DNA of 64,000 nt from Terriglobus roseus. Lineage in GTDB: Bacteria; Acidobacteriota; Terriglobia; Terriglobales; Acidobacteriaceae. Location: positions 3,968,001 through 4,032,000 of the forward strand of contig NZ_FNSD01000001.1 of NCBI RefSeq assembly GCF_900105625.1, in the 5' to 3' direction. Positions 32,185-53,650 of this stretch are shown here, in pieces; position 1 is the stretch's first letter, and the number at the start of each line of letters is the position of its first letter. The notes beneath the pieces were generated by a model, which ran no database searches, was not told where the DNA came from, and saw nothing but the letters and a program-made list of their open reading frames with translations. A program made the position numbers and the translations under genes.

Positions 32185-35100
32185 CTAGAAGGAAAGACGA
32201 GCAGCGACCTGCAGAACTCTGGCGTTCGGAAGAATGCCGGAGAAGCGTGTCGACGTAATGGCCTGCCCCGAAGTTCCGGTCAGACTCGTGCCGGGGTTGC
32301 TGAATGATGGTGTGTTCAACACGTTAAAGCCATCCACTCGCAGCTGCAACGCAGTCTCCCGATAGGGAAGTGCGAAGCTTTTGAAGAGTGACATGTCCAC
32401 ACGGTTGAAGCCGGGACCGACGACACCGACGCGGCCACGTGGACCGGACGGGATCACGCCTGCGTTCGCTGCGTTGATGGTGTTCTGGCTTGCCGAGGCA
32501 CCACTGCTTACGACCTGCGGTGGATTGGTGAATGAGCAGGGATTAAACCACTGACTGATCGTGCGAGTTTTGGCGGCGCAGTTGAACTGTGGCTGTGTTG
32601 GGCTGAGGGAGCTTCGTGTGCTACCGGAACCAAGCGGGGCTCCCGTGCTGAATGGATCGGCGATCTGGTACGGATAGCTCGAACCCTGGTTTGAAGAAGT
32701 GAGGAAGATGGGGTTGCCGGTCTGTGCCTGGAACACCAGGCTCGACTTCCATCCACCAATCACTTCGTCGAGCAGCTTGCTGTCGTGGGCGAATTTCTTT
32801 CCACGACCGAAGGGCAGTTCGTATTGCGCATTCAGGCTCACGCGGCTGCGAACGTCCTGCGTGCAGCTGCCGTAGTCATATCGGAAGCCGAGAAGATTCG
32901 GATTCCGGTAACCACCCTGCTGCGCCTGTCCGATAGGCCCGAACGAGTCATCAAGGCAGTGAGCCCATGAGTAGCCACCCAGGAAATACAGGCCTGCACC
33001 GAACTGCTTTTCGATCTTCGCCTGCAGGGAATCGTAAGACGCAATACCCTCATTGGAGACGTTCGCAATCCCGAAGTCATAGAAAGGCTGATAGGCCTGT
33101 CCGTTGGCTCCACTCGGGACATATCCGGCGTAGGTGTTGGCGTTGTAGCTCATCCGAAGACGACGGCTCTTGCTGCCCTGGTAGCTCACGGTCATGGTCA
33201 TGGTGTTAGACAGTGAGTGCTGCAGGCTAAGGTTATAAGCTTCGTTGTAGGAACTCTTCGCGTTCTGATCCTGGCTATAAATCTGGCCAATGCCGGAAGC
33301 TGCGGCGAGTGCTGCGGGACTGGTGGCGGCGGCGCCGAAACCAGTTTCTAGCGTCTGACCGTTGGTCGGGCAGTTCACCGATCCGTTGAGGTTGTAGCAC
33401 TGGTTGGGCGTGGGAACGAAGCTCGAATTCACAAAGAATGGAGCGTTGTTCGCAAGGTTCAGGCCCAGGCCAATGTTTTCCAAGCCGCCGTAGAACATAC
33501 CGAAACCGCCACGCAACACAGTCTTGGGCTCGAGCAGAAAATTGAAGCCCACACGTGGTGCGAAGTTCAAACGTTGCGGATTCACCAGATAGTTATTGTC
33601 GGTGTATTGGACAGCGATGTGGTCCGCAGCGAGGGTAGTTGCTAAGGTAGCTGCGATCGGGTAGCTGCGCTGAGAGGACGGTATGAGGAGCGTACCCGTT
33701 CCCTGGTTGTTATTCGCGTAGTTTCCGATGAAGTTTGACTGCATGTTATTCAATTCACGGATGGGTTGCGAGTATTCCCAACGTACGCCCATGTTCAGCG
33801 TAAACCGTGGGGTTACCTTCCAGTCGTCCTGCAGGAAGGCTGCGTAGTACCAACGTAGATCGGTAAACGGCTGCACTGTGCTCAGACCAGAGTTGTTCAT
33901 CTGGTCCTGCAGGTAATCTGCCAGGCCTGAACCGGAGACGTTGACCTTGTCCGCCGGATTCTCGCTGTATGTGCCGTTGAAGTTCTGGTACCCGATGCCA
34001 TTGGGTGGCTGCAGGCCGTAGAAACGCACGTGCTGAAAGTTGATGCCGGCCTTGACCGTGTGCCGTCCGACCTGCTTGTTTACGTTGTCAATGATCTGCA
34101 GAACATTCTGGAGCTCATCGGAGGGAAGATAGCCAGTGGTCCCAAGCTGTGTCGCTGCATCATTGCCGCTACGGGAATCGCCGAAGTTTGTCTGCGGGAG
34201 ACCGCCGAGGTTCTTGCCGGTAGGAATGCCGCCCAGGCCAAGGCTGGCTGCGAAGCCGCTGTTTGCAGCGTTCGGTCCCAGGTAGGAGGCGTGCAGCCAG
34301 TTATAGCCAGCACGGAACTCGTTGGAGAGTGTTGGGCTGAAGAAGTGGGTCTCCGAGAAAACACCGCTCTTAGCGTAGTTGGAGTTCTGTCCCGAGCTGC
34401 CAAAACTGCCACCGTCAAGGATGCCCAGCGGCGGTGCATAGCTGATGGGGTTGTTGGAGTAGCTGTAACGGGCGAACATCTGATCCTTCGCCGAAAAGTT
34501 GTAGTCGACACGAAGGTCATACTGGGTGGTGTCATTCGTGATGGCAGTTGCAGGAGCGGTGTAGTTATTGAAGGCCTGGTGCACATTCGCCGCATTCGGA
34601 AGCGGGTAGAGCGCGAGCACTGCTTTTGCCACAGCGTTGATCTGATTGGCACAAAGCACGTTCCGAACACCATTGCAGGTCAGGTAACGCGGATCAGCAC
34701 CAGCGTTCGCAGTTCCGCCGACGATACTGGTTGCCGTTCCACCGGGCTGGTACAGCGAGATCGCACCACGGCCTGCCGTATTTGCAGGGCTTAGCAACTC
34801 GCTGAAGTCGCCTGTCCGCTCCAGGGCGGTGGGTACGGTGAGATTCGGTGTTGGCGGAGAGTACTGCGAAATTCGGGTGCCTTCCGCGTCGGCGAAGACG
34901 AAGATCTTGTCCTTCCAGATAGGGCCGCCGAGTGTCGCTCCGAACTGGTTCATGTGATATGCCGTCTTGTTGGTAGCGAAGTAATCGAGCGCATTCATGC
35001 GGTCGTTACGGTAGTACTCCCACAGGCTGCCGTGGACGGAATTAGTGCCGGCCTTGATCGAGGCATTGATTGCTGCGCCAGTACCGCGCCCAAGTTCCGC

Positions 35101-35799: not shown

Positions 35800-35957
35800 A
35801 CGGGGACACCCTTGTTGGATTGCTGAAAGACGATCCTACGACCGAGAACGGGCTTGCTCATGAGGTATGGTGTTTTCAGCTGTGAAAGCAGTATTGCATC
35901 AGTGAGCAGAATGTCAACGGAAAGTTCACGCCCCTGTAACGCTCGAGGAGGGTCTTC

Positions 35958-37850
35958 ATGCGGCGGGACATCAAGGATTTGAAGATGTCGTTTTTGAAGG
36001 TTGCAAGAACTCTGGTGTCCGTCGCGCTGCTGCCGGGAGTCTCCCTGTTGGCAGGCGCTCAGAGAAGCCCCGCTACTGTAAGCCCCCTGCAGGTCGCCGG
36101 AGGTCATCTGGAATTGCGAGGGAAACCCTTTCAGATTGTTTCGGGTGAACTGGAATACGCTCGCATCCCGAGAGAGTACTGGCGGGACAGGCTCCGCAAG
36201 GCACACGCTATGGGCCTGAACGCGATCACGGCGTATGTGTTTTGGAATGTGCATGAACCACGGCCCAGTAGTTACGATTTCAACGGTCAGAACGACGTGA
36301 AGGAGTTCCTTCGGGAGGCACAGCAGGAGGGGCTGTACGTCATACTTCGTCCGGGACCGTACGTGTGCGCGGAGTGGGATCTTGGCGGCTATCCCTCGTG
36401 GCTTCTTAAGGACCATTCGATGGTTCTTCGCGGCATGCAGCCTCAGTTCCAGGAAGCTGCAACACGCTGGATGCTGCGGCTGGGGAAGGAGCTTGCGCCG
36501 CTGCAGGCAGATCGCGGTGGCCCCATCCTCGCCGTCCAGGTGGAGAACGAATATGGCTCCTTCGGCGAAGATCATGCGTACATGAAGTGGATGCAGCAAC
36601 TGGTGATCAAAGCCGGATTCGGCGGATCACTGCTGTATACAGCAGATGGTGCGGACGTCCTGGATAAGGGAAGCCTTCCGGGTGTCTTCGCCGGGATCGA
36701 TTTCGGCACGGGAGATGCTGATCGATCCATCAAGCTCAAGTCGGCCATTCGCCCGGACTCGCCCACGTATGTCGCGGAATACTGGGACGGCTGGTTTGAC
36801 CACTGGGGCGAAAGGCATCAGACGACGGATGCCGCGAAGCAGGAGTCCGAGGTTCGGGCGATGCTGCACAGCGGAGCCTCTGTCAGCCTGTACATGGTGC
36901 ATGGCGGCACCTCATTTGGCTGGATGAATGGTGCCAATAACGATCACGACGGATACCAGCCGGACGTGTCGAGCTATGACTACGACGCTCCTCTGGATGA
37001 GTCGGGAAGACCGCGGCCCAAGTACTTCCGCATGCGTGATGTCATTGCGCAGGAGACGCACATCCAACCGATCCCGGTACCCGTGTCATCGCCGATGATC
37101 AGCTTTCCGGCGGTGACGCTCACGGAGTCCGTCTCACTTTGGGATACTCTTCCGCCCGCGGTGGAACGCGACACGCCTCCGAGTATGGAGGATATGGATC
37201 AGGCGTATGGATACATCCTGTACCGCCGTCAGCTTACGGGCTCAGGCAAGGCTGATTTAACCATTTCAGATCTTCATAGCTACGCGCGGGTTTACCTCGA
37301 TGGGAAGCTTGTCGGTGTGATGGATCGGCGGCTGGGGCAGAAGAGTATCTTGCTTGCTGTCGAAGGCACGCACCGACTCGACATCCTTGTGGAGAACTCC
37401 GGCCGTATCAACTTCAAGACCGCGATACGAGGTGAGCGTGCAGGTGTGCTTGGGGCGATTCGCTACGGTGACTTGCGGCTTGCCGGCTGGAAGGTCTATC
37501 CATTGCCGTTTGCGCCACCGCCTGTGAAGGGTTACACGACCGCCGCGTGCAGCGGGCCATGCTTCTCCCAGGGAACGTTTCAAATTGCCTATCCGGGAGA
37601 CACGTACCTGAATACGCAGCAACTGGGTAAAGGCGTTATCTGGGTCAACGGACACCTGCTGGGCCGCTTCTGGAACATTGGACCGTCCGGTACACTCTAC
37701 CTTCCCGGGGTGTGGCTTCGTAAGGGAAGCAACACCTTGAAGGTGCTGGACCTGGATGGTGGTGGGACCGGTGCAGTCCGCGGTCAGGATGCAGCGTTTT
37801 ACTTCGAGCCAAAGAATGAGACCGCGCAGTCGCTGGGTGTTTCGAATTGA
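35958..37850 (+). CDS. GH35 beta-galactosidase, secreted
   Basis: 630-residue exported beta-galactosidase that removes terminal beta-D-galactose. Start at 35958 is supported by GAGGAGGG seven bases upstream; a signal segment VSVALLPGVSLLAGAQ follows. The GH35 barrel opens with FQIVSGELEYARIPREYWRD, has RPGPYVCAEWDLGGYPSWLL, the acid/base Glu at about 198 in VQVENEYG, the nucleophile Glu at about 274 in AEYWDGWFDHWG, and MVHGGTSFGWMNGAN. Beta-sandwich modules make up the last third (HSYARVYLDGKLVGVMDRR, WVNGHLLGRFWNIGPSGTLY). Divergent to the outer-membrane receptor and followed by GH20, it probably trims galactose from a fucosylated glycan. Confidence 0.93.
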   Translation: MRRDIKDLKMSFLKVARTLVSVALLPGVSLLAGAQRSPATVSPLQVAGGHLELRGKPFQIVSGELEYARIPREYWRDRLRKAHAMGLNAITAYVFWNVHEPRPSSYDFNGQNDVKEFLREAQQEGLYVILRPGPYVCAEWDLGGYPSWLLKDHSMVLRGMQPQFQEAATRWMLRLGKELAPLQADRGGPILAVQVENEYGSFGEDHAYMKWMQQLVIKAGFGGSLLYTADGADVLDKGSLPGVFAGIDFGTGDADRSIKLKSAIRPDSPTYVAEYWDGWFDHWGERHQTTDAAKQESEVRAMLHSGASVSLYMVHGGTSFGWMNGANNDHDGYQPDVSSYDYDAPLDESGRPRPKYFRMRDVIAQETHIQPIPVPVSSPMISFPAVTLTESVSLWDTLPPAVERDTPPSMEDMDQAYGYILYRRQLTGSGKADLTISDLHSYARVYLDGKLVGVMDRRLGQKSILLAVEGTHRLDILVENSGRINFKTAIRGERAGVLGAIRYGDLRLAGWKVYPLPFAPPPVKGYTTAACSGPCFSQGTFQIAYPGDTYLNTQQLGKGVIWVNGHLLGRFWNIGPSGTLYLPGVWLRKGSNTLKVLDLDGGGTGAVRGQDAAFYFEPKNETAQSLGVSN

Positions 37851-38114: not shown

Positions 38115-40175
38115 ATGCGTCAACGTTCGATTCTTGCTTTCGCCATTGTTGCCCACCTGGTATGTGCGGGCAGCATGCATGCCGTTGCTGCGGATCTTTC
38201 TCTGTCAGCGAATCATCTCATGCCGCAGCCAGTAAGTATGTCGACGGGTCAAGGACGACTCGTGCTTACCAAGGGCTTCACCGCGAGTACACCACGCGGG
38301 TCTTCGCCGCGTCTCGACAGGGCCGTCGAACGGATGCTCTATCGTCTGGAGGACCAGACTGGCTTAGAGCTTGTACGACAGGTTGGTCACGTTACGGGTG
38401 CGACTTTAACGGTTGATGTTCTGCAGCCGGACACGACGGTTCAGGGATTGGACGAAGATGAATCCTACCACCTGGATATCACCTCCAATGCGATCCAGAT
38501 TCATGCCGCGACCACGACGGGCGCGATGCACGCCTTGGAAACAATGCTTCAATTGGTTCAGCCAGCAGGCTCCGCTTACATGGTGCCCGCGGCGGTCATT
38601 GATGACAGTCCGCGCTTTCATTGGCGCGGACTCATGATCGATTGCGGCCGACACTTCGAACCCATCGACGTGCTGAAGCGGAACCTCGATGCGATGGCTG
38701 CCGTAAAGCTGAACGTCTTTCACTGGCACTTGACCGAGGATCAGGGATTCCGTATCGAGAGCAAGCGGTTCCCCAGGCTGACGGCCGAGGGCTCTGACGG
38801 ACTCTTCTATACCCAGGAGCAGGCGCGGGAGCTTGTGCAGTATGCGCGCGATCGCGGTATCCGCATAGTCCCGGAGTTTGAGATGCCGGGACACTCCGTT
38901 GCATGGCTCGTCGCCTACCCGGAACTGAATAGTGGGACACAACCGACCGGGATCCGGCGCGAGTTCGGCGTGTCGGACTACGTGCTTGATCCCACACGGG
39001 AAGCGACGTACAAGTTCATTAACTTGTTCCTCACAGAAATGGCCTCAATCTTCCCGGACCAATATGTGCACATCGGAGGAGACGAGGCGCCTGCCCCGGA
39101 TTGGAAGACTAATCCGCGTATCGTTGCCTTCATGAAGTCGCATGACCTGAAGGACAACGATGCCTTGCAGGCTTACTTCAACAAGCGCGTCCTCGCGATT
39201 CTGACTAAGCTGAACCGGCGCATGGTGGGATGGGACGAGATCTTCAACCCAGCACTTCCAAAGGATGTCGTCATCCAGTCGTGGCGTGGCGAGCAGTCCC
39301 TGAGCAAGGGCGCCACGCAGGGCTACCAGGGTGTGCTCTCGGCCCCCTACTATCTCGACGGGATGCAGCCGGCAGTGAAGCCTTATCTCGCAGATCCAAT
39401 CTCAGCGAATACGACACTGACGCCAGAGCAGCAGAAGCTGATTCTGGGCGGAGAGATCTGCATGTGGGGTGAGCATCTGGATGGACGGACGATCGATTCA
39501 CGTATCTGGCCGCGCAGCGCAGCGATCGCCGAGCGATTCTGGTCGCCACAGAACGTGCGAGACGTCGACAGTATGTACTCGCGCCTTGATGCAGTCTCTG
39601 TCGAACTGGAGACGCTGGGACTTCGGCACCTCACGAGTGAAGATGCTGAGCTTCGTGGTCTGGCTGGAAGCGAACATATTGCAGCTCTACGCACCTTCGC
39701 GTCAGCGTTTGAACCGGTTGGGTTCGGTGATCGATCCTCCGAGCAGCACACCTCGCAACGAACTGCTTTGACGAGTTTTGTTGATGCGGTTCGGCCCGAC
39801 CCGCCGATCCGACACCAGTTGGAGTTGGCTGCGAAGCGATATCTCGCAAAGGGAACAGAGACCACCTCTGCTACGTCTCAATCGAAGGATCTTCTGGAAC
39901 GCTTCTTCTCGGAGGTGAATGCATCCATGCCGTCTGTTAACGAACTGATCAAGCAGCAACCCCGGTTGCAGCCCATGCAGGAACGTGCGGATCAGCTCGC
40001 GGTGCTGACAGGGATTGGCAGCCAGGCGATACATTTTCTGGAGACTGGAACGTCTGCACCTGCCCAATGGAAACAGGATGCGTTAGCGCGAATCGAAGGG
40101 GCGAAGAAGCCTAGTGGTCTGGTCTTCTTTGACTTCCTGTCGCCGCTGACCGATCTGGTAAACGCAACACGATAG
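38115..40175 (+). CDS. GH20 beta-N-acetylhexosaminidase, secreted
   Basis: 686 residues from the ATG at 38115, which has GAAAGG upstream; a signal peptide (ILAFAIVAHLVCAGSMHAVAA) follows. The N-terminal GH20b domain (about 30-145) precedes the catalytic barrel, which shows FHWRGLMIDCGRHFEP, LNVFHWHLTEDQGFRIESK, VPEFEMPGHSVAW and the catalytic Asp-Glu pair in HIGGDEAPAPDWK near residue 323. QSWRGEQSL and GGEICMWGEHLD supply later substrate contacts. The enzyme removes beta-linked GlcNAc or GalNAc by substrate-assisted catalysis. With GH35 and GH29 nearby it points to host-type or fungal complex glycans. Family assignment is secure; linkage is not. Confidence 0.94.
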   Translation: MRQRSILAFAIVAHLVCAGSMHAVAADLSLSANHLMPQPVSMSTGQGRLVLTKGFTASTPRGSSPRLDRAVERMLYRLEDQTGLELVRQVGHVTGATLTVDVLQPDTTVQGLDEDESYHLDITSNAIQIHAATTTGAMHALETMLQLVQPAGSAYMVPAAVIDDSPRFHWRGLMIDCGRHFEPIDVLKRNLDAMAAVKLNVFHWHLTEDQGFRIESKRFPRLTAEGSDGLFYTQEQARELVQYARDRGIRIVPEFEMPGHSVAWLVAYPELNSGTQPTGIRREFGVSDYVLDPTREATYKFINLFLTEMASIFPDQYVHIGGDEAPAPDWKTNPRIVAFMKSHDLKDNDALQAYFNKRVLAILTKLNRRMVGWDEIFNPALPKDVVIQSWRGEQSLSKGATQGYQGVLSAPYYLDGMQPAVKPYLADPISANTTLTPEQQKLILGGEICMWGEHLDGRTIDSRIWPRSAAIAERFWSPQNVRDVDSMYSRLDAVSVELETLGLRHLTSEDAELRGLAGSEHIAALRTFASAFEPVGFGDRSSEQHTSQRTALTSFVDAVRPDPPIRHQLELAAKRYLAKGTETTSATSQSKDLLERFFSEVNASMPSVNELIKQQPRLQPMQERADQLAVLTGIGSQAIHFLETGTSAPAQWKQDALARIEGAKKPSGLVFFDFLSPLTDLVNATR

Positions 40176-40235
40176 AAGCGGGGAGTCGGTAGAGCATCGC
40201 TGCACTACCGGCTTACGCTGCGTTTGCGCCGTGGG

Positions 40236-41045
40236 CTAGGTGGCGTCGGCGCCGGACGTCAGCGCACGATCCAGGTGGGTGTAACCACCGTCGACGAAGA
40301 CATGCTGGGCGGTTGTGTGGGCGGATTGCGTTGGTGATAGCAGAAAGGCCACAGCAGAGGCGATCTCCGATGCACGAGTCATGCGGTGCTGAAGAGGGAC
40401 GCGCGCACCTACAGTTGCAAGGCCAGTACCTCCGTGTTGCTGAGCGAGCCATTGCTCATATAAGGGCGTGACCACCTCAGCAGGCACGACGGCGTTCACA
40501 CGAATGCCATAGGGAAGTAACTCCGCAGCCCACTCGCGTGTGAGTGCCAGTTGCGCGCCTTTGGCGGCTGCGTAAGCCGAGGTGCCACCCTGGCCGGTGA
40601 CGGCAACCTTCGAGCTGATGTTCACGATGGAGCCGTGACTTTCCTTCAGCATGGGCAGAGCAAAGTGCGCAAGGGAATAGTAGTGCAAGAGATTCTGCCG
40701 AAGACTCTCTTCGAAGCGGAGCGGATTCCCCGTCTCAAGACCAACATTATCGTTGGCCCCCGCATTGTTCACCAGGCCATCCAGGCGACCGAAGCTGTCG
40801 CGCACGAAGGCAATGGCAGCCTCGCACTGCCTCGGATCCGCAAGCTCTGCCTGGAAGAAACGGCATCGCGAAGAAACCGATGCCTTCATCTCTGTCTCGA
40901 ATGCCATCACTTCAGGCGTATGGCGTCCAGCGACCACAACGGTCGCACCCTCTTCCAGGCATTGCCGCGTCACCGCCTGACCTATGCCTGACCCGCCGCC
41001 ACTTACCAGAAATACAAGGCCATCCATGCCGAGATTCATTGCCAT
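40236..41045 (-). CDS. short-chain dehydrogenase, probable L-fucose dehydrogenase
   Basis: 269-residue SDR. The NAD site is LVSGGGSGIGQAVTRQCLEE, NNAGAND follows, and the catalytic residues lie in IVNISSKVAVTGQGGTSAY-AAAKG (Ser, Tyr, Lys). In the oxidative fucose pathway an SDR oxidises L-fucose to L-fucono-1,5-lactone; this gene is co-transcribed with the keto-deoxyfuconate dehydrogenase three bases upstream and divergent from the rest of the pathway, so that role is inferred. Start at 41045 is close to the upstream stop; an in-frame ATG at 41039 has better spacing from AGGGG. Which of the two SDRs takes which step is the main doubt. Confidence 0.8.
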   Translation of the reverse strand: MAMNLGMDGLVFLVSGGGSGIGQAVTRQCLEEGATVVVAGRHTPEVMAFETEMKASVSSRCRFFQAELADPRQCEAAIAFVRDSFGRLDGLVNNAGANDNVGLETGNPLRFEESLRQNLLHYYSLAHFALPMLKESHGSIVNISSKVAVTGQGGTSAYAAAKGAQLALTREWAAELLPYGIRVNAVVPAEVVTPLYEQWLAQQHGGTGLATVGARVPLQHRMTRASEIASAVAFLLSPTQSAHTTAQHVFVDGGYTHLDRALTSGADAT

Positions 41046-41048
41046 CCC

Positions 41049-41813
41049 CTACCGAACGTGAAGAAATCCGCCATCGATCGGGTAGTCGCAGCCGGTAGCA
41101 AACGATGCTTCATCCGAGCAGAGGTACAGCGCGAGAGCAGCAATTTCCTCAGGCTTTCCCATGCGGCCAATCGGCTGCGCCCGCGCCAATTCCTCGAGCT
41201 TTGCAGCTTCTTGCCCCGGATAGTTCTTCGCGACGAAACCATCGACAAAGGGCGTGTGAACGCGTGCCGGCGAGATCGCGTTGCAGCGTATACCTGCCGC
41301 CAGATAGTCCCGCGCGACGGAGAGCGTCATCGACAGCACAGCTCCCTTGGACATCGAATACGCCAGCCGGTCGTTGAGACCCGCAGTCGCCGCGATGGAG
41401 GCCATATTCAAAATCGATCCGCCACCGCGTTCCAGTAAGAGCGGCAAAGCTGCTTGCATGCAAAGAAAGGTGCCGCGCACATTCACTGCGTACAGGCGGT
41501 CAAGATCGCTTGCGGTAGTGTTTTCCAGTCGCCCAACGTGGGCGATCCCTGCACAATTGACCAGGATGTCCAGCGGCCCGAGCCCGTTGAAGACCTCCTT
41601 GACGGCGTCTTCGCTGGACACGTCGCAAGTCCTGGCGAGTACTTCAGCACCTGTGTGCTCTGCGATCGCTGTGGCGACACCTGCGACCGCATCCGGCACC
41701 AGATCGCATACGACCACGGCCGCTCCAGCACTGGCAAAACTCTTTGCAATGGCAAGACCGATTCCGCTGGCTGCGCCCGTGACTACGGCTCGCTTTCCCG
41801 TTAAGCTAAACAT
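41049..41813 (-). CDS. SDR, probable 2-keto-3-deoxy-L-fuconate dehydrogenase
   Basis: 254-residue SDR that in the oxidative L-fucose pathway oxidises 2-keto-3-deoxy-L-fuconate to 2,4-diketo-3-deoxy-L-fuconate with NAD. The cofactor loop is VVTGAASGIGLAIAKSFA, the NCAGIAHVG motif follows, and the catalytic set lies in ILNMASIAATAGLNDRLAY-SMSKG. The C-terminal segment PARVHTPFVDGFVAKNYPG matches the substrate loop I associate with this activity. ATG 41813 has AGAGGTGG eight bases upstream and was chosen over 41861. It is the first gene of a two-gene minus-strand unit starting at the divergent fuc promoter region. Role is inferred from context and loop similarity. Confidence 0.8.
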   Translation of the reverse strand: MFSLTGKRAVVTGAASGIGLAIAKSFASAGAAVVVCDLVPDAVAGVATAIAEHTGAEVLARTCDVSSEDAVKEVFNGLGPLDILVNCAGIAHVGRLENTTASDLDRLYAVNVRGTFLCMQAALPLLLERGGGSILNMASIAATAGLNDRLAYSMSKGAVLSMTLSVARDYLAAGIRCNAISPARVHTPFVDGFVAKNYPGQEAAKLEELARAQPIGRMGKPEEIAALALYLCSDEASFATGCDYPIDGGFLHVR

Positions 41814-41874
41814 CTTCCGATCCACCTCTAGTGCACTCGGCGCGGTTGAACTCGCGTGCATTGTCTTGCCTCAT

Positions 41875-41919
41875 ATGAAACCACTATTTCATTGACAAAA
41901 AAAGACCCAACTCCATAAA
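41875..41919 (+). promoter_or_regulatory. fuconate dehydratase operon promoter with overlapping palindromic operator
   Basis: An 18-base palindrome ATGAAA-CCACTA-TTTCAT occupies 41875-41892 and directly abuts a consensus -35 TTGACA at 41892-41897. After 16 bases comes CATAAA (41914-41919), a 4/6 match to the -10. The palindrome is placed to let a regulator block the -35; the IclR-type protein encoded at the end of the locus is the natural candidate, and the site also sits upstream of the divergent SDR genes. Binding is inferred. Confidence 0.6.
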
Positions 41920-42002
41920 CTGCAGCAATCTGTTCCGTTGGAATGCGGTAAGCATCCCAGGGTCTGCTGAGAACGAGAATAGTCGAAGAGCTGAAAGGGC
42001 GT

Positions 42003-43334
42003 TTGCAAGTGGAAAGACCTGTGATAACGAAGGTGCGGGTCCTCGACATCCGTTTCCCAACGTCTCGCGAACACATCGGATCGGATGCGGTTAACACGGA
42101 CCCGGATTATTCGGCGGCATACTGCATCCTTGAAACAAGTACCGGCGAAGAGGGACATGGCCTTACGTTCACTCTTGGCCGCGGTACCGACATCGTCGTC
42201 AAGGCTCTGGAGTATCTGGCGAGCAAAGTCGAAGGCCGTGCTCTGGATGAAATTACGGCAGACTTGAATGCGTTTGCGATGGAGTTGTCGGGCGATACGC
42301 AGTTGCGCTGGCTCGGTCCGGACAAGGGCGTGGTGCACCTCGCGTGCGGAGCCATGCTGAACGCCGTCTGGGACCTCTACGCGCGCTGCGAGCGGAAGCC
42401 TGTGTGGCGGCTCCTGATGGACATGCAACCAGAACAGATAGTTGCTGCCATCGACTTTCGCTACATTGCCGACGCGCTTTCGCCGGAAGAAGCTCTCACG
42501 ATCCTGCGGGGAGGAAAGCAGGGCCAGGCAGAACGGCTGCGCCAGCTGGAGCGTACGGGATATCCCGCGTATACGACGTCGGTTGGCTGGTTCGGTTTCA
42601 GCGACGAAAAAATACGGAACCTTTGCCACGCAGCCCTCGCTGAAGGCTGGACGCATTTCAAGCTGAAGGTCGGCGGAACGCCCGAAGATGATTTGCGTCG
42701 TGGTTTGATCGTGCGGGAAGAGATTGGCTGGGCGAATCGTCTCATGGTCGATGCGAATCAGCGGTGGGGCGTCCAGCAGGCGATTGACCGCACACTGCTG
42801 CTTCGTGAGCTTCAGCCATGGTGGATGGAAGAGCCTACGAGTCCCGACGACATCCTCGGGCACGCCCGTATCCGGCGCGAGACCGGGGTGCGAATCGCAA
42901 CCGGGGAACATTGTCAGAATGCCGTGATGTTCAAACAGTTGTTCCAGGCAGAGGCAATCGATGTCTGCCAGATCGACAGCTGTCGCGTCGCGGGTATCAA
43001 CGAGAATCTGGCGATCATGCTGATGGCTGCAAAGTTCGGTGTGCCGGTCTGCCCCCACGCAGGCGGAGTCGGATTATGTGAATACGTTCAACACCTCTCC
43101 GTATTCGATTACCTTGGGATCTCTTGCTCGCTGCAGGATCGGGTGATCGAGTACGTGGAACACTTACACGAACATTTCGTCGATCCCGTTCGCATTGAGC
43201 GAGGACATTACCTGTTGCCGAAACTGCCGGGATATAGCGGCGAGATGCGTCCGGAATCGATCGAACAATATAGATATCCAGGCGGGGACGCCTGGAGAGG
43301 AACTCCCCATGAAGCTGATTTCGTACAGGCATAA
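42003..43334 (+). CDS. L-fuconate dehydratase (enolase superfamily)
   Basis: 443-residue dehydratase of the mandelate racemase/enolase group that turns L-fuconate into 2-keto-3-deoxy-L-fuconate. Active-site residues line up well with characterised FucD: Lys220 and Lys222 in HFKLKVGG, metal ligands Asp250 (MVDANQRW), Glu276 (WWMEEPTSPDD) and Glu302 (ATGEHCQN), and the catalytic His352 in CPHAGGVGLCEYVQHL. The N-terminal segment TKVRVLDIRFPTSREHIGSD is also FucD-like. TTG at 42003 or GTG at 42009 starts translation; AAAGGG lies just upstream of both. It heads a five-gene operon, and its 3' end overlaps the hydrolase gene by 26 bases. Confidence 0.92.
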   Translation: MQVERPVITKVRVLDIRFPTSREHIGSDAVNTDPDYSAAYCILETSTGEEGHGLTFTLGRGTDIVVKALEYLASKVEGRALDEITADLNAFAMELSGDTQLRWLGPDKGVVHLACGAMLNAVWDLYARCERKPVWRLLMDMQPEQIVAAIDFRYIADALSPEEALTILRGGKQGQAERLRQLERTGYPAYTTSVGWFGFSDEKIRNLCHAALAEGWTHFKLKVGGTPEDDLRRGLIVREEIGWANRLMVDANQRWGVQQAIDRTLLLRELQPWWMEEPTSPDDILGHARIRRETGVRIATGEHCQNAVMFKQLFQAEAIDVCQIDSCRVAGINENLAIMLMAAKFGVPVCPHAGGVGLCEYVQHLSVFDYLGISCSLQDRVIEYVEHLHEHFVDPVRIERGHYLLPKLPGYSGEMRPESIEQYRYPGGDAWRGTPHEADFVQA

Positions 43335-44133
43335 GGACGGCGGTTCAACGCGTGCCGGTCTGCTGGAAGGCGATGCAGTGAGGCCCTTCGTGGGCTCCGA
43401 TCGTGATCCAGTGCTTGCGTTCATCGAAAGTGGTGACACGCAGCCTGCCCTGGAGGCACAGACTCTCGCGCTGAGTGAGGTTAAACTGCTTGCCCCTATC
43501 CAGCGGCCGCCGCGCATTTTTGGAGTAGGTCTCAACTACCGTGAGCATGCAGCAGAGTCGAAGATGGTTGTGCAGAGTGTGCCGACCGTATTCATGAAGC
43601 TGTCCTCCTCCGTTATCGGGCCCGAAGAGGATGTGATCCTGGCGCCTGAAGCCCTCCAGCCAGACTTCGAAGTGGAGCTGGGTGTTGTCATCGGCAGGCC
43701 CGGATACCGCATTGCCGCCGGCGACTGGGAAGATCATGTTTTTGGCTACACCATTGTGAATGACGTGAGTGCACGCGCTGTGCAGCTTGCAACGACGCAG
43801 TGGACGCTGGGCAAGAGCTTTCCGACCTTCACACCGATGGGTCCATGCATCGTCACTCGCGACGAAGTCCCCGACCCACACGCGTTGGATATCAAGTTGA
43901 CCCTGGACGGAGAGGTGATGCAATCTGCGAATACTCGTGATCTCATCTTCCGTGTCCCGGAGCTGATCGCATACATCTCTTCGATCGTTCCTTTGGAGGC
44001 TGGTGATGTCATCAGTACCGGAACGCCGCCGGGCGTTGGACTTGGCCGCACTCCACAACGGTGGCTCAAACCCGGGGAGCAGATGCTGCTTGAAGTCGAG
44101 CGCATTGGCACGCTGCGCAACCGGACCCGTTAA
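43309..44133 (+). CDS. FAH-family hydrolase, probable 2,4-diketo-3-deoxy-L-fuconate hydrolase
   Basis: 274-residue fumarylacetoacetate-hydrolase-fold enzyme. Typical segments are RIFGVGLNYREHAAES, TVFMKLSSSVIGPEEDVIL, the metal-binding DFEVELGVVIG (Glu-x-Glu), YTIVNDVSARAVQ, KSFPTFTPMGPCI and ISTGTPPGVG. In the oxidative fucose route it splits the diketo acid into pyruvate and L-lactate; that activity is inferred from its position inside the operon. The ATG at 43309 is preceded by GGAGAGGA. It lies within the 3' end of the dehydratase gene, so translation is coupled. Confidence 0.87.
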   Translation: MKLISYRHKDGGSTRAGLLEGDAVRPFVGSDRDPVLAFIESGDTQPALEAQTLALSEVKLLAPIQRPPRIFGVGLNYREHAAESKMVVQSVPTVFMKLSSSVIGPEEDVILAPEALQPDFEVELGVVIGRPGYRIAAGDWEDHVFGYTIVNDVSARAVQLATTQWTLGKSFPTFTPMGPCIVTRDEVPDPHALDIKLTLDGEVMQSANTRDLIFRVPELIAYISSIVPLEAGDVISTGTPPGVGLGRTPQRWLKPGEQMLLEVERIGTLRNRTR

Positions 44134-44149
44134 ACGATCGGAGGTTCTT

Positions 44150-44533: not shown

Positions 44534-44571
44534 AGGCATGTCTCCCGGTTTCGGGTAGAAGGGTGAGCGCG

Positions 44572-45435
44572 ATGCGAGTGGACGCACATCATCACCTGTG
44601 GCATTACAACGTTGACGAGTTTTCGTGGATTGAAGACGAAGCCGCTGCACTCCGCCGCGACTTCCTGCTAGCGGACTTCGAGGCTGCTCTTAAAGAGGCA
44701 CACGTAGACGCAAGCGTAGTGGTGCAGGCTCGCCAATCGCTGTCCGAGACCCTTTGGTTGCTGAAGTGTGCAGAGCAGTCCGAATCGATCGGTGGTGTTG
44801 TTGGATGGGTGCCACTCAATGACAGCGACAAACTCTCTAAGGCTCTGGACGAACTCAGTTCGCATCGAACTTTTGTCGGCGCTCGCGAGATCCTTCAAGA
44901 CAAGCCAGATGGCTTCCTGATGGATTCAGCATTGACGGAGGGTATGCGTCAGCTTACGCAGCGTGACATCACATACGATCTCCTGATCCGCGCTTCCCAG
45001 CTTGAAGAAGCCATCCGTTTCGTCGACCTGCATCCCAATCAAAAGTTCGTACTGGACCATGCCGGGAAGCCCCGGATAGCACAAGGTGAAGTGGAACCCT
45101 GGGCCGGGCTGCTCCGCGACCTCGGCCGCCGTCACAATGTCTTCTGCAAGCTTTCGGGTCTGGCGACCGAAGCTAAGCGGGACGGCTGGACCGCGGCCGA
45201 TCTGGCACCATATCTTGATACGTGCCTGGGAGCCTTTGGGCCGCAGCGATGTATGGCAGGTTCTGACTGGCCCGTTTGCCTTGTCGCGACCTCTTACTCA
45301 GCTTGGTGGCAGTCGCTGGAGCGTTGGGTAGATTCCATGTCGGCAGATGAGCAGCAGCAAATCATGGGCGGTACGGCGTGTCTGTTCTACGGGTTATCGC
45401 CGGTGGGACGCCCAGCGGCAAAGCAGATCCGGTGA
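44572..45435 (+). CDS. amidohydrolase-2 family L-fuconolactonase
   Basis: 287-residue TIM-barrel hydrolase (PF04909) that opens L-fucono-1,5-lactone to L-fuconate. The N-terminal RVDAHHHLWHYNVDEFSWI is typical of this lactonase group, with the histidine metal motif; later come SVVVQARQSLSETLWLL, WVPLNDSD, KFVLDHAGKP, NVFCKLSGLATEA and the Asp in MAGSDWPVCL. ATG 44572 is used, with AGGGTGAG upstream; a GTG three codons earlier is possible. The stop overlaps the GTG start of the permease (GTGA). Pathway role is strongly supported by the neighbours. Confidence 0.9.
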   Translation: MRVDAHHHLWHYNVDEFSWIEDEAAALRRDFLLADFEAALKEAHVDASVVVQARQSLSETLWLLKCAEQSESIGGVVGWVPLNDSDKLSKALDELSSHRTFVGAREILQDKPDGFLMDSALTEGMRQLTQRDITYDLLIRASQLEEAIRFVDLHPNQKFVLDHAGKPRIAQGEVEPWAGLLRDLGRRHNVFCKLSGLATEAKRDGWTAADLAPYLDTCLGAFGPQRCMAGSDWPVCLVATSYSAWWQSLERWVDSMSADEQQQIMGGTACLFYGLSPVGRPAAKQIR

Positions 45436-46757
45436 ACACAAACCCCAGCTTCGATCCGACGGAAGGGCGCCTACAGTCGGCGAGTGCATCGCTGCTTCCC
45501 AAAAGCGGCCTGATCCCGTTCGCTTTGGTCACGGCACTCTTCTTTCTATGGGGCATGTCCAACAATCTGACCGATGTGCTGGTGCAGCAATTCAAGAAAT
45601 CGTTTGATCTGTCTCCGCTGCAGGCACAGCTGGTACAGACAGCGGTCTTCTTCGGCTACTTCTGCATGGCTCTGCCGGCAGCCCTCGTGACGAAACGCCA
45701 CGGCTATAAGCGCGGGATCCTGATTGGCCTTGGCCTGTTCGGGACGGGTATGCTGCTGTTCTGGCCAGCCGCTGTCATTGGTCGCTACTCCTTGATGCTG
45801 TTTGCGCTGTACGTTGTCGGTTGCGGATCGGCAGTTCTGGAGACCACCGCCAACCCTTTCATTGCGCAATCGGGACCACCTGAGAGCTCGGAGCGGCGAC
45901 TGAACCTCGCTCAGAGTTTCAATCCACCTGGAACCATTTGCGGAGTTTTAGTCGGCACCTATTTCATCTTTTCTGGTGTTGAGCTGACGCCAGCGCAGGT
46001 GCTTGCGCTGCAGCAGCATGGCCAGTACACGCATTACCTGCATAGCGAGCTGATGCGTGTCGTCCCACCCTACGTAACCCTGGGGTGTGTTGTGCTCGCA
46101 TTGGCGGGCGTTATCGCGTTTGCACGCTTCAATACGACTCTCCGGCAAAATGCCGGCGCACCGCCAGAGCATCTCGGTCGTCAAATCGTGCAGATACTTC
46201 GCACGCCCCAGGTACTCGCCGCAGTCGCGGCACAGTTCTGTTATTGCGGTGCGCAGGTCAGCACCTGGTCGGCATTTATCCCCTACACCAAGCAATACGC
46301 CGCAACATCCGAGCGAACGGCCGCACTGTTTCTCACTGGCAATCTGGTCGCCTTTGCCGCTGGCCGCATCTTCTCGACATCCCTCATGCGGCGGTTCCGC
46401 CCCGTGCGCATGATGACCGCTTACGCCCTGGTGAACATTCTTGTCCTTGGATTTGCAGTACTGCGTCCGGGGCTGCCGGGGGCGATTGCCCTTGTCGTCA
46501 CAAGTTTCTTCATGTCCGTGATGTACCCAACGATCTTTTCCATTGGGATTAAGGGCCTTGGTGCGAAGACAGAGCTTGCAAGCTCCTTGCTTGTGATGGC
46601 GGTGGTAGGTGCGGCGGTGATACCGCCCCTGCTCGGCCTGGTCGCCCGGGCAACACGCAGTTATGCGTTGGGCTATGCACCGGTGCTGGCGTGCTATGCC
46701 GTGGTCGCGGTCTTCGGCTGGCTTCACAGCGGAGCACCGGTGAAGGCGTCCGACTAG
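45432..46757 (+). CDS. fucP: L-fucose:H+ symporter of the FucP type
   Basis: 441-residue major facilitator with twelve spans. The FucP signature FFLWGMSNNLTDVLVQQFKK near the first span contains the Asp known to matter in E. coli FucP, and GSAVLETTANPFIAQSGPP contains the conserved Glu of the fourth span. NLAQSFNPPGTICGVLVGTY and FCYCGAQVSTWSAF-type segments complete the match. The GTG at 45432, overlapping the lactonase stop, is preferred over 45378. It is the last gene of the operon and overlaps the fucosidase gene end by four bases on the other strand. It should bring free L-fucose, released by GH29 in the periplasm, into the cytoplasm. Confidence 0.92.
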   Translation: MNTNPSFDPTEGRLQSASASLLPKSGLIPFALVTALFFLWGMSNNLTDVLVQQFKKSFDLSPLQAQLVQTAVFFGYFCMALPAALVTKRHGYKRGILIGLGLFGTGMLLFWPAAVIGRYSLMLFALYVVGCGSAVLETTANPFIAQSGPPESSERRLNLAQSFNPPGTICGVLVGTYFIFSGVELTPAQVLALQQHGQYTHYLHSELMRVVPPYVTLGCVVLALAGVIAFARFNTTLRQNAGAPPEHLGRQIVQILRTPQVLAAVAAQFCYCGAQVSTWSAFIPYTKQYAATSERTAALFLTGNLVAFAAGRIFSTSLMRRFRPVRMMTAYALVNILVLGFAVLRPGLPGAIALVVTSFFMSVMYPTIFSIGIKGLGAKTELASSLLVMAVVGAAVIPPLLGLVARATRSYALGYAPVLACYAVVAVFGWLHSGAPVKASD

Positions 46758-48418
46758 AGTTTCTGCAGCGTCACGGAGCCTCGCTCCGCACCCACTACCG
46801 TTCCACTGATGGCAACCGTTTCCGCAACACCCGTGATGTCCAGGACAAGTTCATCGACATGAGCAGGGCTTCGCTTGAGCAGGTCAGGCTCATCGACTCC
46901 GTGCAGGCGCAACGAAAGATTGTTGAGCCCTTTCACAGTGCCAGCAAGTGGAATGAAGCGAAGCCGATATTGGGCCGCAGCCTTGATCTGTGAGGTTAGG
47001 TCCAGATGGAAGGTGTGACTTTCCCATCGGCCGACAAGATTGGCCGCCCAGAGCTGCGCAGGGGCGTCCCATGCTGTGGGAGGCTCCTGGCCGGTATGGA
47101 ACGCTACCATGGAACGAAGATGCGGGCGTCCGACACTTTCCGTGATCGTCAATCGCACCTTGTCGTAGACCGCCGAGGCAATGGGCTGGATGCGCTTATG
47201 GCCGATAGCGGAACCGCTACCGAGGAGTGTCCAGGATCCGCCCTTATAACCCTCCAGCCTGTAACTGCGCACCCGTTCGCCGAAGCGTAGATCCTCTGCA
47301 AGCACCATCGTGTCGATGGGCATCGCCGGCTTGCCGCTCAGCAGGAGTGAGCTGCCACTGCCTGCTGTTTCTGCAACGGGATCCTGAAAGCGCCGCCAAA
47401 TTTCCGCACCCAGCTGAGTCGCTGCCTCCGTGTCCTTTGCCGGCAGCAATCCGCTTCTATCTGCGGGAATATTGAGCAGGAGCTGCGCGCCCCGGCCGAC
47501 GGATCGGTAGTAGATCGAGAGCAGTTGGTCGACGTTTAAAACCTTGCTCTCATTCTTGGTGCTCCAGAACCAGTCCGGACGCCGTATCGAGACGTCCACC
47601 TCATTCGGCATCCACACCGCTCCCGAAGGATCGCTGTTCAAAGACGTAGCGGTGCCTGTCTTCGCCTCTTCGGCATCAATGCCGTTCCAGCAGGGATAGG
47701 GCGCGTAGCCGTCTTCATTACCCACCCACCGTATAGTGGCTGCAGAACCTTGAAAGACCATGGAATGCGGCTGGTAGCGCGCCAGCAGGTCACTTACAGG
47801 CGTTCGTGTGGATCCGTCGAACCACACTTCCACCATGGGACCATAGTTGCCGAGGACTTCGGTGAGCTGTTGCCGGTACATGGTGTCGTACCGGGCCTGC
47901 ATCTCGGGCGTGGCACAGACTCCGCCGGTCTTAGCGCCGAAGTGATCGTCACGAGGACAGACGTAAACTCCAAGTTTCAAACCGTGGCGTTTGCAGGAAG
48001 CCGCCACCTCTGCAAGTACGTCCCCTCGGCCACTCTTCCAGGGCGTGTTCCGGATGCTGTATTCCGTGGTTTTGGTCTGCCACATGCAGAACCCGCCCTG
48101 GTGTTTCGCCACAAAGACGAGGTACCGCGCACCCAAAGCGACAGCAGTCCTTGCCCACTGGTCGGTATCGAGATCCCGCGGATTTATCCGGGACAGTGGT
48201 GTGGACAGATCGTCCGACTCAAGATCCTGCCATGTGTTGGGCGCGAAGTGAACGAACATGCCCAGCTCAAGATCCTGCCAGGCAAGTTGGTCGGCGCTGG
48301 GATGCGCACGGGTCTTTGCTGCATCCGATGCTCCCTCCAGAAGGAAAGGGAAGCCATGCGCGTAGCCGGTACCGATACCGACGGAAGCTGCCGAGAGGAT
48401 GAAGTTGCGCCTGTTCAT
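46754..48418 (-). CDS. GH29 alpha-L-fucosidase, exported
   Basis: 554-residue exported fucosidase. A Tat-like signal MNRRNFILSAASVGIG begins the protein. The catalytic barrel shows WQDLELGMFVHFAPNTW, LVFVAKHQGGFCMWQTKTT, the nucleophile Asp near residue 201 in MVEVWFDGSTR, and WFWSTKNESKV; the C-terminal part is a beta-sandwich with LHGVDEPDL. It releases alpha-L-fucose from glycans, feeding the permease and oxidative pathway on the opposite strand. ATG 48418 was chosen because the longer frame to 48475 disrupts the signal peptide. It is convergent with fucP and downstream of the IclR gene on the same strand, 92 bases away. Linkage preference unknown. Confidence 0.92.
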   Translation of the reverse strand: MNRRNFILSAASVGIGTGYAHGFPFLLEGASDAAKTRAHPSADQLAWQDLELGMFVHFAPNTWQDLESDDLSTPLSRINPRDLDTDQWARTAVALGARYLVFVAKHQGGFCMWQTKTTEYSIRNTPWKSGRGDVLAEVAASCKRHGLKLGVYVCPRDDHFGAKTGGVCATPEMQARYDTMYRQQLTEVLGNYGPMVEVWFDGSTRTPVSDLLARYQPHSMVFQGSAATIRWVGNEDGYAPYPCWNGIDAEEAKTGTATSLNSDPSGAVWMPNEVDVSIRRPDWFWSTKNESKVLNVDQLLSIYYRSVGRGAQLLLNIPADRSGLLPAKDTEAATQLGAEIWRRFQDPVAETAGSGSSLLLSGKPAMPIDTMVLAEDLRFGERVRSYRLEGYKGGSWTLLGSGSAIGHKRIQPIASAVYDKVRLTITESVGRPHLRSMVAFHTGQEPPTAWDAPAQLWAANLVGRWESHTFHLDLTSQIKAAAQYRLRFIPLAGTVKGLNNLSLRLHGVDEPDLLKRSPAHVDELVLDITGVAETVAISGTVVGAERGSVTLQKL

Positions 48419-48510
48419 AGGCGAGAGTTTACATTTACTGGCGAACAATGTGAACCACGGGCGACGTCCTGCCATCTGTTTCCGTGACAGCTTCGGATCA
48501 TCGCCGTTCC

Positions 48511-49308
48511 TTAATGCGGCGCGCCGATAGCTTTGGAAATCTCGCGGCTTGTCTCCCGCAGCATGAGCTCCGCCTCGCGAAGGGGAATGCTTGCACCGAG
48601 CCGGTGGATGAAGGGGATGGTTAGCGCAGCGACGGCTCGACTCGACTCACCCATCAAAGGGCAGGAGATATTGATCACGCCCTGCACCTGATAGCTCTTC
48701 CGCGTCTCGTACCCGCGGCGCTCGATCTTTCTCAAGTGGCTGCCCAGGTCTGCAGGCACCCTGCGACCTGTCTCTTTCTGCCAGTCGGCAAGCGCTTTCT
48801 CTCTTGCTTCCGAGGGCAGGTGTGCAAGGATCACTTGTCCCGACGCTGCCTCCATCAGGTCTACCCTCGATCCAGCCTTCACGTACAGGCCCACGGACGC
48901 CCGCGCATTCGTTTGAGCCAGAATCACGACGTGCCCGGCTTCCAGGACGCCAAGATGACATGACTGCTCGAGCTTTTCAGACAGAACATGCATGCGAGGC
49001 AGCGCTTCCGAGAGGAGTCGTTCGGTTGGGGGATGCTCCTGTACAAGCTGGAATAGGCGCAGGGAAAGAACGTAGCGATCCTGTTGCGTCTCAATGATGT
49101 ATCCCCTGCGCTGTAGGCAGACGAGCATACGAAAGATCTCAGAGACTGTCCGTTGCAGCGCTCTCGCGACCTCACTCTTGGTCAGTCCATTGCGATCTCT
49201 TGCTAACAACTCCAGGATGTCCAAACCTTTTTCGAGCGCTGGTGTGGCATACACCACGGTCTGGTCCGAACTTCCAGAATGGATTTCTTGCGAAGACTTG
49301 CGTGCCAT
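48511..49308 (-). CDS. IclR-family transcription regulator
   Basis: 265 residues with a winged helix at about 22-85 (ALEKGLDILELLARDRNGLT, SEVARALQRTVSEIFRMLV) and an effector-binding IclR domain at about 100-260 (CHLGVLEAGHVVILAQTNAR, VDLMEAASGQVILAHLP, RRGYETRKSYQVQGVINISC). IclR proteins often control sugar-acid catabolism. It ends the fucose locus and lies just upstream of the fucosidase gene, so control of that gene and of the divergent fuc promoters is the obvious inference; a pathway intermediate could be the ligand. The palindrome at 41875-41892 is a candidate operator. Confidence 0.9.
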   Translation of the reverse strand: MARKSSQEIHSGSSDQTVVYATPALEKGLDILELLARDRNGLTKSEVARALQRTVSEIFRMLVCLQRRGYIIETQQDRYVLSLRLFQLVQEHPPTERLLSEALPRMHVLSEKLEQSCHLGVLEAGHVVILAQTNARASVGLYVKAGSRVDLMEAASGQVILAHLPSEAREKALADWQKETGRRVPADLGSHLRKIERRGYETRKSYQVQGVINISCPLMGESSRAVAALTIPFIHRLGASIPLREAELMLRETSREISKAIGAPH

Positions 49309-53637: not shown

Positions 53638-53650
53638 GGAGGCTTGAACC

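Follow-up and report, generated by a model that had tools for sequence, protein, structure and literature searches.

An Oar-like receptor, exo-glycosidases and the oxidative L-fucose pathway in a putative regulon of Terriglobus roseus

Introduction

Can a soil Acidobacterium import a fucose-bearing glycan, dismantle it and consume the fucose with the genes of a single locus? The question is raised by positions 32185 to 49308 of a 64,000-nucleotide stretch of the Terriglobus roseus genome (hereafter the window), where a preliminary description made from the sequence had placed a fucosylated-glycan utilization locus joined to a complete oxidative L-fucose pathway. Judged from its genes, the locus looks able to import such a glycan, to cut it to monosaccharides and to turn the fucose into pyruvate and lactate. 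Fucosidases joined to the oxidative pathway are already known from bifidobacterial fum loci and the single parts are known elsewhere; it is their combination that is unusual.

Results

Gene content of the locus

At the sequence level the observations comprise gene families, signal sequences recognized by eye, and a pair of palindromes that turn up again in relatives. Every gene named in the preliminary description is present as an intact open reading frame with a clear family match (Table 1); its list had missed one gene, that of an IclR-family regulator.

Table 1. Genes and operator-like sites of the locus (window coordinates)
Feature	Position	Strand	Evidence and remarks
Oar-like TonB-type outer-membrane receptor, 1204 aa	32185..35799	-	CarboxypepD_reg + OMP_b-brl_4 barrel; PF25183 695 bits
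Operator-like palindrome GTGAAAGCAGTATTGCAT, receptor/GH35 gap	35882..35899	.	overlaps -10 of promoter-like site
GH35 beta-galactosidase, secreted	35958..37850	+	381 bits; PDB 8fa5 602 bits; signal peptide by eye
GH20 beta-N-acetylhexosaminidase, secreted	38115..40175	+	324 bits; PDB 6yhh 463 bits; signal peptide by eye
SDR, L-fucose 1-dehydrogenase	40236..41045	-	NF052481 345 bits, cut-off 300
SDR, probable 2-keto-3-deoxy-L-fuconate (KDF) 4-dehydrogenase	41049..41861	-	PDB 8xwk 157 bits
Operator-like palindrome ATGAAACCACTATTTCAT, SDR/FucD gap	41875..41892	.	fused to -35 box TTGACA
L-fuconate dehydratase FucD, enolase superfamily	42003..43334	+	1yey 530 bits
FAH-family hydrolase, probable 2,4-diketo-3-deoxy-L-fuconate hydrolase	43309..44133	+	PF01557 237 bits; first ATG about 43309
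RbsD-related putative pyranase/mutarotase (RbsD_FucU), 127 aa	44150..44533	+	PF05025
Probable L-fucono-1,5-lactonase, amidohydrolase (Amidohydrolase_2)	44563..45435	+	NF052480 best family
FucP, L-fucose:H+ symporter (MFS)	45378..46757	+	TIGR00885 354 bits, cut-off 280
GH29 subfamily-B-like, putative alpha-1,3/4-L-fucosidase	46754..48475	-	Tat-like signal RRNFIL (by eye); SpGH29 residues
IclR-family regulator, in line with GH29	48511..49308	-	Pfam

The predicted oxidative L-fucose pathway

Two proteins of the locus, the L-fucose dehydrogenase and FucP, exceed curated cut-offs (NCBIfam/TIGR). FucD aligns over nearly its full length with the L-fuconate dehydratase 1yey and scores 551 bits to 4a35, the mitochondrial enolase superfamily member 1. 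The L-fucose 1-dehydrogenase and the L-fuconate dehydratase of the non-phosphorylating pathway were thus both found, through NF052481 and 1yey. For the second SDR, 8xwk is the third-best solved chain, outscored by a pair of different SDRs at 162 and 160 bits. The protein is not named by any specific NCBIfam model; its neighborhood suggests KDF 4-dehydrogenase activity. The accessible text of PMC11199699 describes 8xwk as a KDF dehydrogenase. The FAH hydrolase belongs to its family by PF01557 and by its best solved relative, the L-2,4-diketo-3-deoxyrhamnonate hydrolase 8gsr (188 bits), and lies below the cut-off of the specific model NF053535 (221 vs 500 bits). The diketo acid derived from rhamnonate is presumably identical with that derived from fuconate. 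The lactonase also falls below the cut-off of its family (243 vs 400 bits), and its best solved relative is the 4dlf group (166 bits). Since the FucP reading frame starts within the end of the lactonase gene, the real FucP start may be further on. A whole-genome search for FucI gave one match to its C-terminal domain, at 24 bits vs a cut-off of 29, and it was not counted. Taken with the solved relatives, these family matches support well the earlier assignment of an oxidative L-fucose pathway.

The glycosidases and their likely glycan

The GH20 reading frame opens at 38055, with ATG 38115 as its probable start. Alignment of the GH29 protein with 6org (SpGH29 group) shows that D171, W211, E215 and D257 of 6org are all identical. 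In SpGH29, D171 is the nucleophile and E215 the acid/base, and W211 and D257 contact galactose, according to the accessible part of a review (PMC10154630) which also warns that the GH29 subfamily does not always predict linkage. The window enzyme therefore has the catalytic and galactose-contacting residues of GH29-B, and this makes Lewis-type epitopes the best guess for its substrate. The complex host-type or fungal glycans proposed earlier may accordingly be narrowed to those with Lewis-type Gal-(Fuc)GlcNAc ends, epitopes that plant N-glycans carry too.

Two palindromes associated with promoter-like sites

The promoter-like site overlapped by GTGAAAGCAGTATTGCAT (35917-35890, minus strand) is directed at the receptor, and the one fused to ATGAAACCACTATTTCAT extends from 41892 to 41921 on the plus strand. 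Between 32 and 50 kb, the two promoter-like sites with 10/12 matches coincide with the two palindromes, while such sites are no commoner than in shuffles (5 vs 5.9). In the whole genome the pattern RTGMAA-N6-TTKCAY is matched exactly twice, each time within the locus, as compared with one match for the backward control. Because the consensus was derived from these two sites, they are not independent of it, and the tests proper are its absence elsewhere in the genome and its placement in relatives.

Among 51 distinct relative FucD loci we found eight exact sites, and none for the backward control. Five of the eight lie between divergent KDF dehydrogenase and FucD or FAH genes, and three between a receptor and GH29. 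In the FucD gap of the window a TTGAC or TTGAA box, accompanied by a TACAAT-like -10, is fused to the palindrome, and so it is in six relatives, where the fusion stands before fucose genes. The exact palindrome is absent from most of the 51 loci, and also from the region ahead of IclR-GH29 in the window. In 12 other genomes of the genus the exact sites total 62 vs 30 for the backward control, so that in those genomes a match to the pattern is not specific in itself. An IclR homologue lies near FucD in 16 of the 39 distinct loci that are flanked by 5 kb or more on either side. The palindrome resembles what we take to be the KdgR box, GAAA-N6-TTTC. No paper on KdgR/IclR control of such a locus was found in a literature search whose coverage excluded most subscription papers.

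Relative loci and alternative readings

Homologues of the FAH hydrolase, both dehydrogenases, lactonase, FucP and IclR recur around FucD in related genomes, which indicates that the clustering of the pathway genes is not due to chance. Under the score thresholds used, an Oar-like receptor was near FucD in 10 of the 39 loci and GH29 in 8, the latter being a lower bound because single-segment thresholds miss split matches (as in L117 and L118). GH35 was near one and GH20 near none, hence the complete set is rare. The earlier statement that few loci combine receptor, depolymerizing enzymes and oxidative branch was too strong, in view of these receptor and GH29 counts and of the fum locus; what stands is the rarity of the full set. 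In another genus, one locus (L134) brings together a receptor homologue of 64% identity, GH29, GH35, the KDF dehydrogenase, FucD and FAH genes, and IclR, as a partial version of the window locus. Its KDF dehydrogenase match is just 43%, it gave no match to L-fucose dehydrogenase, lactonase, FucP or GH20 at the thresholds used, and it has no exact palindrome. Our literature search yielded no paper joining Acidobacteria, L-fuconate and fucosidase, or 2-keto-3-deoxy-L-fuconate, fucosidase and TonB, which is weak evidence because most subscription papers were outside its coverage; a Granulicella omics paper has no occurrence of fucose or fucosidase.

Oar-like proteins are abundant in this genome (73 PF25183 matches with 65 of 91 candidates scored, some being pieces of split genes), and the nearness of the receptor by itself tells little; the shared operator and L134 say more about its membership. 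The low counts of GH35 and GH20 would fit a fucose core (the SDRs, FucD, FAH hydrolase, isomerase, lactonase and FucP) that formed one ancestral module, beside which the receptor, GH35 and GH20 are unrelated neighbors serving another galactoside. The spread of Oar-like genes throughout the genome agrees with this, as does the fact that among eight close receptor homologues (57-77% identity, one partial) only that of L134 adjoins fucose genes, one of the other seven sitting near a contig end. However, the receptor/GH35 gap holds one of the genome's only two operator copies, L134 unites receptor, GH29 and GH35 with FucD, and GH20 occurs in 4 and GH35 in 2 of 13 GH29-B loci (within the stretch examined; 13 of the 19 other places with at least 50% identity). 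We consider such accidental neighborhood rather improbable. That the pathway serves mainly D-arabinose or L-galactose, which share their configuration with L-fucose, the fucosidase being incidental, is far less credible still: the fucose enzymes of Campylobacter jejuni also use D-arabinose (accessible text of PMC6946681) and the GH29 relatives include exo-alpha-L-galactosidases, as weak matches (28 bits), but the FucP and L-fucose dehydrogenase models exceeded their cut-offs and the GH29-B catalytic residues are conserved. The idea of a single fucosylated-glycan locus is reasonable. The receptor and the glycosidases are neighbors on the DNA and have an operator-like site in common. The whole region is in our view likely to be a feeding locus for fucosylated glycans working as one regulon, to which, as far as sequence can tell, the receptor and fucose catabolism probably both belong.

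The identity of the mutarotase requires similar weighing. The preliminary description had assigned it to the RbsD/FucU type, and the superfamily holds; FucU itself is ruled out, the protein being nearer to RbsD (57.9 bits to 3p12 vs 16.8 to FucU 2wcv; 29% identity to E. coli RbsD, 24% to FucU). H20, D28, H97, K101, Y119 and N121 are common to it and E. coli RbsD, and E. coli FucU differs at positions 97 and 101. The conserved residues would also suit an ordinary D-ribose pyranase placed here by accident, as would the fact that the solved proteins closest to it, at 58, 52 and 46 bits, are pyranases of D-ribose, and the location of the gene away from the tested fucose genes in 5 of 17 relatives. 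Yet the genome's sole PF05025 match sits inside the fucose gene run; in the other 12 of the 17 relative genomes the gene adjoins those of FucP, lactonase or L-fucose dehydrogenase, vs none of 12 comparison regions (4 from the same genome, 7 around receptor homologues and 1 around GH29-B, chosen on other grounds and not at random); and the protein remains below the D-ribose pyranase equivalog cut-off of NF008761 (84.5 vs 93 bits). We hold an accidental ribose enzyme to be unlikely. The 39 full FucD loci comprise five with the RbsD type, four with the RhaM type (one at just 37 bits; a single protein served as query) and 30 with neither. Another relative locus of the RbsD type, L133, which is without FucD, carries both genes. 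On these figures, mutual exclusion of the two types is weaker than first appeared. A RhaM-type gene also exists elsewhere in the T. roseus genome, about 438 kb off by coordinates, and could provide a backup mutarotase.

Discussion

The following sequence of events is proposed. The Oar-like receptor would carry a fucose-capped oligosaccharide over the outer membrane, and the secreted GH29 would take off alpha-1,3/4-fucose before GH35 removes beta-galactose and GH20 GlcNAc, an order suited to taking apart Lewis-type Gal-(Fuc)GlcNAc ends. L-Fucose would enter the cell through FucP, the RbsD-related isomerase would provide the ring form oxidized by the first SDR, and the lactonase, L-fuconate dehydratase, second SDR and FAH hydrolase would lead on to pyruvate and L-lactate with no ATP spent. 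The putative operator in both divergent gaps is predicted to be bound by a repressor of the IclR family, probably the product of the gene at 48511-49308. The example of KdgR suggests that its inducer may be 2-keto-3-deoxy-L-fuconate.

The XCC4070 mutarotase of Xanthomonas campestris is presumably of the RhaM type. It belongs to the non-phosphorylating L-fucose pathway of XCC4065-4070, a system that the locus resembles in the match of FucD to 1yey; the accessible parts of PMC5080750 and PMC11199699 do not describe glycosidases or a receptor as members of that operon. Bifidobacteria were reported to have no homologue of this mutarotase and putative RbsD/FucU-domain mutarotases instead (PMC5080750, accessible text), and in fungi PF05025 mutarotases share the taxonomic spread of L-fuconate dehydratase (PMC10481521, accessible text); with these two cases, the superfamily beside the oxidative pathway is not new. 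RbsD and FucU share PF05025 with the window protein, whose genomic context is mostly fucose.

The fum locus of Bifidobacterium kashiwanohense, as far as the accessible text of PMC6817895 goes, links fucosidases of families GH95 and GH29 with the oxidative branch and has 2'-fucosyllactose as inducer. It shares with the window the GH29 fucosidase and L-fuconate dehydratase and, where the counterparts in the window are putative, the mutarotase, lactonase and KDF dehydrogenase. It differs by an ABC transporter, a KDF aldolase ending, a LacI regulator and fucosidases devoid of signal peptide; it has no outer-membrane receptor because Bifidobacterium is Gram-positive. The Xanthomonas XyGUL resembles the window in having an outer-membrane receptor and a set of exo-glycosidases to which GH35 and a fucosidase belong, and its glycan breakdown is inferred to be periplasmic; its fucosidase is a GH95 acting on alpha-1,2-fucose, and fucose catabolic genes are not described in the accessible part of PMC8245568. 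The N-glycan cluster with NixE is reported to be likewise a combination of outer-membrane receptor and exo-glycosidases, GH35 and a fucosidase among them, and fucose catabolic genes do not figure in the passages covered.

A broader scenario, which we offer tentatively and hold to be somewhat doubtful, is that in some Acidobacteriaceae an RbsD-related enzyme acting on L-fucose replaced the RhaM-type mutarotase of the oxidative pathway, and that a fucose-sensing IclR protein captured Oar-like receptors by means of a portable promoter-operator, so that varied receptors and glycosidases plug into one fucose regulon. The literature covered (titles, abstracts and some passages, with a Solibacter paper and receptor terms) gave no substrate for such an Oar-like receptor. 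Whether L-fucose can be served by the scaffold of a ribose pyranase is a question for which the RbsD-related isomerase makes a clean test case. A receptor that an operator ties to a sugar pathway of defined course is a direct experimental handle and, if the scenario is true, the Oar family, which is very large in these soil bacteria, would gain a testable role in glycan import.

Organization of the locus and its predicted L-fucose pathway

Twelve intact genes make up the locus, and two divergent promoter gaps separate genes of opposite strands. Putative signal peptides were recognized by eye at the N-termini of GH35, GH20 and GH29, that of GH29 being of the twin-arginine type. To the left of the receptor lie two neighboring ORFs of 394 and 401 amino acids that gave no Pfam match. 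Further right, a xylose-isomerase-like barrel, two shikimate-dehydrogenase-like genes and UbiD possibly form a quinate/shikimate or aromatic acid locus.

Features of the locus and its flanks, from left to right in window positions
Feature	Position	Strand
Two ORFs	29732-32118	+
Whole locus	32185-49308	
Oar-like receptor		-
Divergent promoter gap, receptor/GH35	35800-35957	
GH35, GH20		+
Two SDRs		-
Divergent promoter gap, SDR/FucD	41862-42002	
L-fuconate dehydratase (FucD), FAH hydrolase, RbsD-related protein, lactonase, FucP		+
GH29, IclR regulator		-
Xylose-isomerase-like barrel, two shikimate-dehydrogenase-like genes, UbiD	52558-57508	

The L-fucose dehydrogenase and the L-fucose:H+ symporter FucP passed curated cut-offs. 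The dehydratase scored 530 bits against the L-fuconate dehydratase 1yey and 551 bits against 4a35 (mitochondrial enolase superfamily member 1). The nearest relative of the FAH protein is L-2,4-diketo-3-deoxyrhamnonate hydrolase, although the protein scored too low to pass the NCBIfam model named after this enzyme; we take the substrate of that hydrolase and 2,4-diketo-3-deoxy-L-fuconate to be a single compound. The lactonase matched the L-fuconolactonase family under the family cut-off, and its top solved relative was the 4dlf/4dnm group. For the second SDR, the L-KDF dehydrogenase of Herbaspirillum (8xwk; PMC11199699) was the third-best solved chain, narrowly behind two other SDRs. A search of the own genome for the fucose isomerase C-terminal domain gave a sub-threshold match only.

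The isomerase is related to RbsD

The mutarotase had been described preliminarily as of the RbsD/FucU type; within that superfamily its sequence is nearer to RbsD, scoring 57.9 bits against a D-ribose pyranase vs 16.8 against FucU. It carries H97 and K101 as does E. coli RbsD, unlike FucU, and these positions presumably line the RbsD pocket. In an alignment of the window protein with 23 relatives' rows (one genome entering twice, as L014 and L118), H97 was found in 24/24 rows and K101 in 22/24.

A homologue occurs in 18 of 150 family genomes, own genome counted. Of the other 17 genomes, 12 carry it in one fetched stretch with at least one gene for FucP, lactonase or L-fucose dehydrogenase, a neighborhood seen in 0/12 comparison regions; it is away from these genes in L119, L121, L127 (lactonase matches under threshold), L129 and L132. 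In L129 the gene adjoins UxaA-type dehydratase and UxuA genes, so its product may not be limited to a single sugar. A comparison of 52 distinct FucD loci (own included) showed the RbsD type in 8 relatives, the RhaM type in 4 and both in none; neither was present in 30 of the 39 FucD loci that have 5 kb or more of sequence on each side. Both types occur together in L133, which is without FucD.

Genes of UxaA/GD_AH-type dehydratases were observed near the RbsD-related gene with no close FucD, in L122 (17369-19027) and, at approximately 8.1 and 8.8 kb respectively, in L129 and L132. That of L122 lies between FAH and the 2-keto-3-deoxy-L-fuconate 4-dehydrogenase (KDFDH) gene, and this position makes its product a possible alternative L-fuconate dehydratase. 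A PF07959 fucose pyrophosphorylase-domain protein is encoded near the RbsD-related gene and FucP in L131 (10200-11819), L125 and L133, with GH29-A also nearby in L131 and L133; this neighborhood is a possible fucose salvage variant. RbsD/FucU-domain mutarotases were earlier proposed for this kind of pathway in bifidobacteria (PMC5080750).

A palindrome in both divergent gaps

The SDR/FucD gap contains the palindrome ATGAAA-N6-TTTCAT with perfect arms; a near copy of it is present between receptor and GH35. The consensus RTGMAANNNNNNTTKCAY, derived from these two sites, has exactly 2 sites in the own genome, both in these gaps, against 1 for the reversed pattern used as control. The 904 kb covered by 51 distinct FucD loci of relatives contained 8 exact sites and no control site; most of these loci have none. 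Five of the 8 occupy gaps in which KDFDH diverges from FucD or FAH, and the other three are located between a receptor and a GH29 gene. No site was found upstream of IclR-GH29. In 12 other genomes of the genus the exact pattern was only about twice as frequent as the control (62 vs 30), in part due to a sequence repeated in two genomes. GTGCAACGGCGTTTTCAT was found several times in G128 and in G148, in the latter three times at 115-base spacing, which suggests a dispersed repeat.

In the FucD gap of the window and in six relatives (five of the exact-site loci and L035, whose FucD is cut short), the right arm runs directly into TTGAC or TTGAA, which is followed at promoter spacing by a TACAAT-like box. 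The L117 site and the receptor-gap site of the window are built without this junction. Between 32 and 50 kb, where promoter-like sites are in total no more numerous than expected by chance, only two reach 10/12 matches and each coincides with a palindrome. With moderate confidence, we regard the palindrome as a candidate operator of an IclR-family repressor.

The receptor in relatives

By FucD, the named relatives include Granulicella, Edaphobacter, Terriglobus and Acidipila. The best evidence for upkeep of the combination, though partial, is L134, a stretch from another genus whose products are 64% (receptor), 62% (GH29), 53% (GH35), 43% (KDFDH) and 71% (FucD) identical to those of the window. 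It also holds FAH and an IclR gene, and gave no exact palindrome site and, at the thresholds used, no match for L-fucose dehydrogenase, lactonase, FucP or GH20. Against a single regulon of receptor, glycosidases and fucose catabolism count the rarity of GH35 (1/39) and GH20 (0/39) near FucD in relative loci and the position of 7 of the 8 close receptor homologues, which are not beside the tested fucose genes. The case for a role of the receptor in fucosylated-glycan uptake is therefore built on its adjacency, the candidate operator and a single partial relative.

In two genomes of the same genus (L117, 14481-17650; L118, 200-5900), a different receptor, 25-26% identical, stands with GH29-A and GH88 beside the fucose genes, which resembles an exchange of the receptor module; in both, receptor and GH29 flank an exact copy of the candidate operator. 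Receptors with the Oar-like barrel PF25183 form a very large family in the own genome (G000; 4.81 Mb, two contigs), with 73 matches when 65 of 91 candidates were scored.

Known loci and the proposed glycan

This kind of locus is already known. The fum locus of B. kashiwanohense has in common with ours the joining of fucosidase to the oxidative L-fucose pathway (PMC6817895), and loci of Xanthomonas the presence of receptor, GH35 and fucosidase (PMC8245568). In the literature, of which coverage was partial, no paper was found on Acidobacteria or TonB with the pathway intermediates. What differs here is the conjunction of an Oar-like receptor, Lewis-type exo-enzymes, the FAH ending, the RbsD-related isomerase and a recurring promoter-operator.

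Among the top solved relatives of GH29, a predicted subfamily B enzyme, are SpGH29 and chains that bear the name alpha-1,3/4-fucosidase. The nucleophile, acid/base and galactose-contacting Trp and Asp of SpGH29, with roles as named in a review, are all kept. Among 13 fetched loci with GH29-B genes of relatives, 4 also contain GH20 and 2 contain GH35. Together, GH29, GH35 and GH20 would suit Gal-(Fuc)GlcNAc ends. Lewis a has been described in plants on a few secreted glycoproteins (PMC7933510), and we infer that these would be a natural food in soil.
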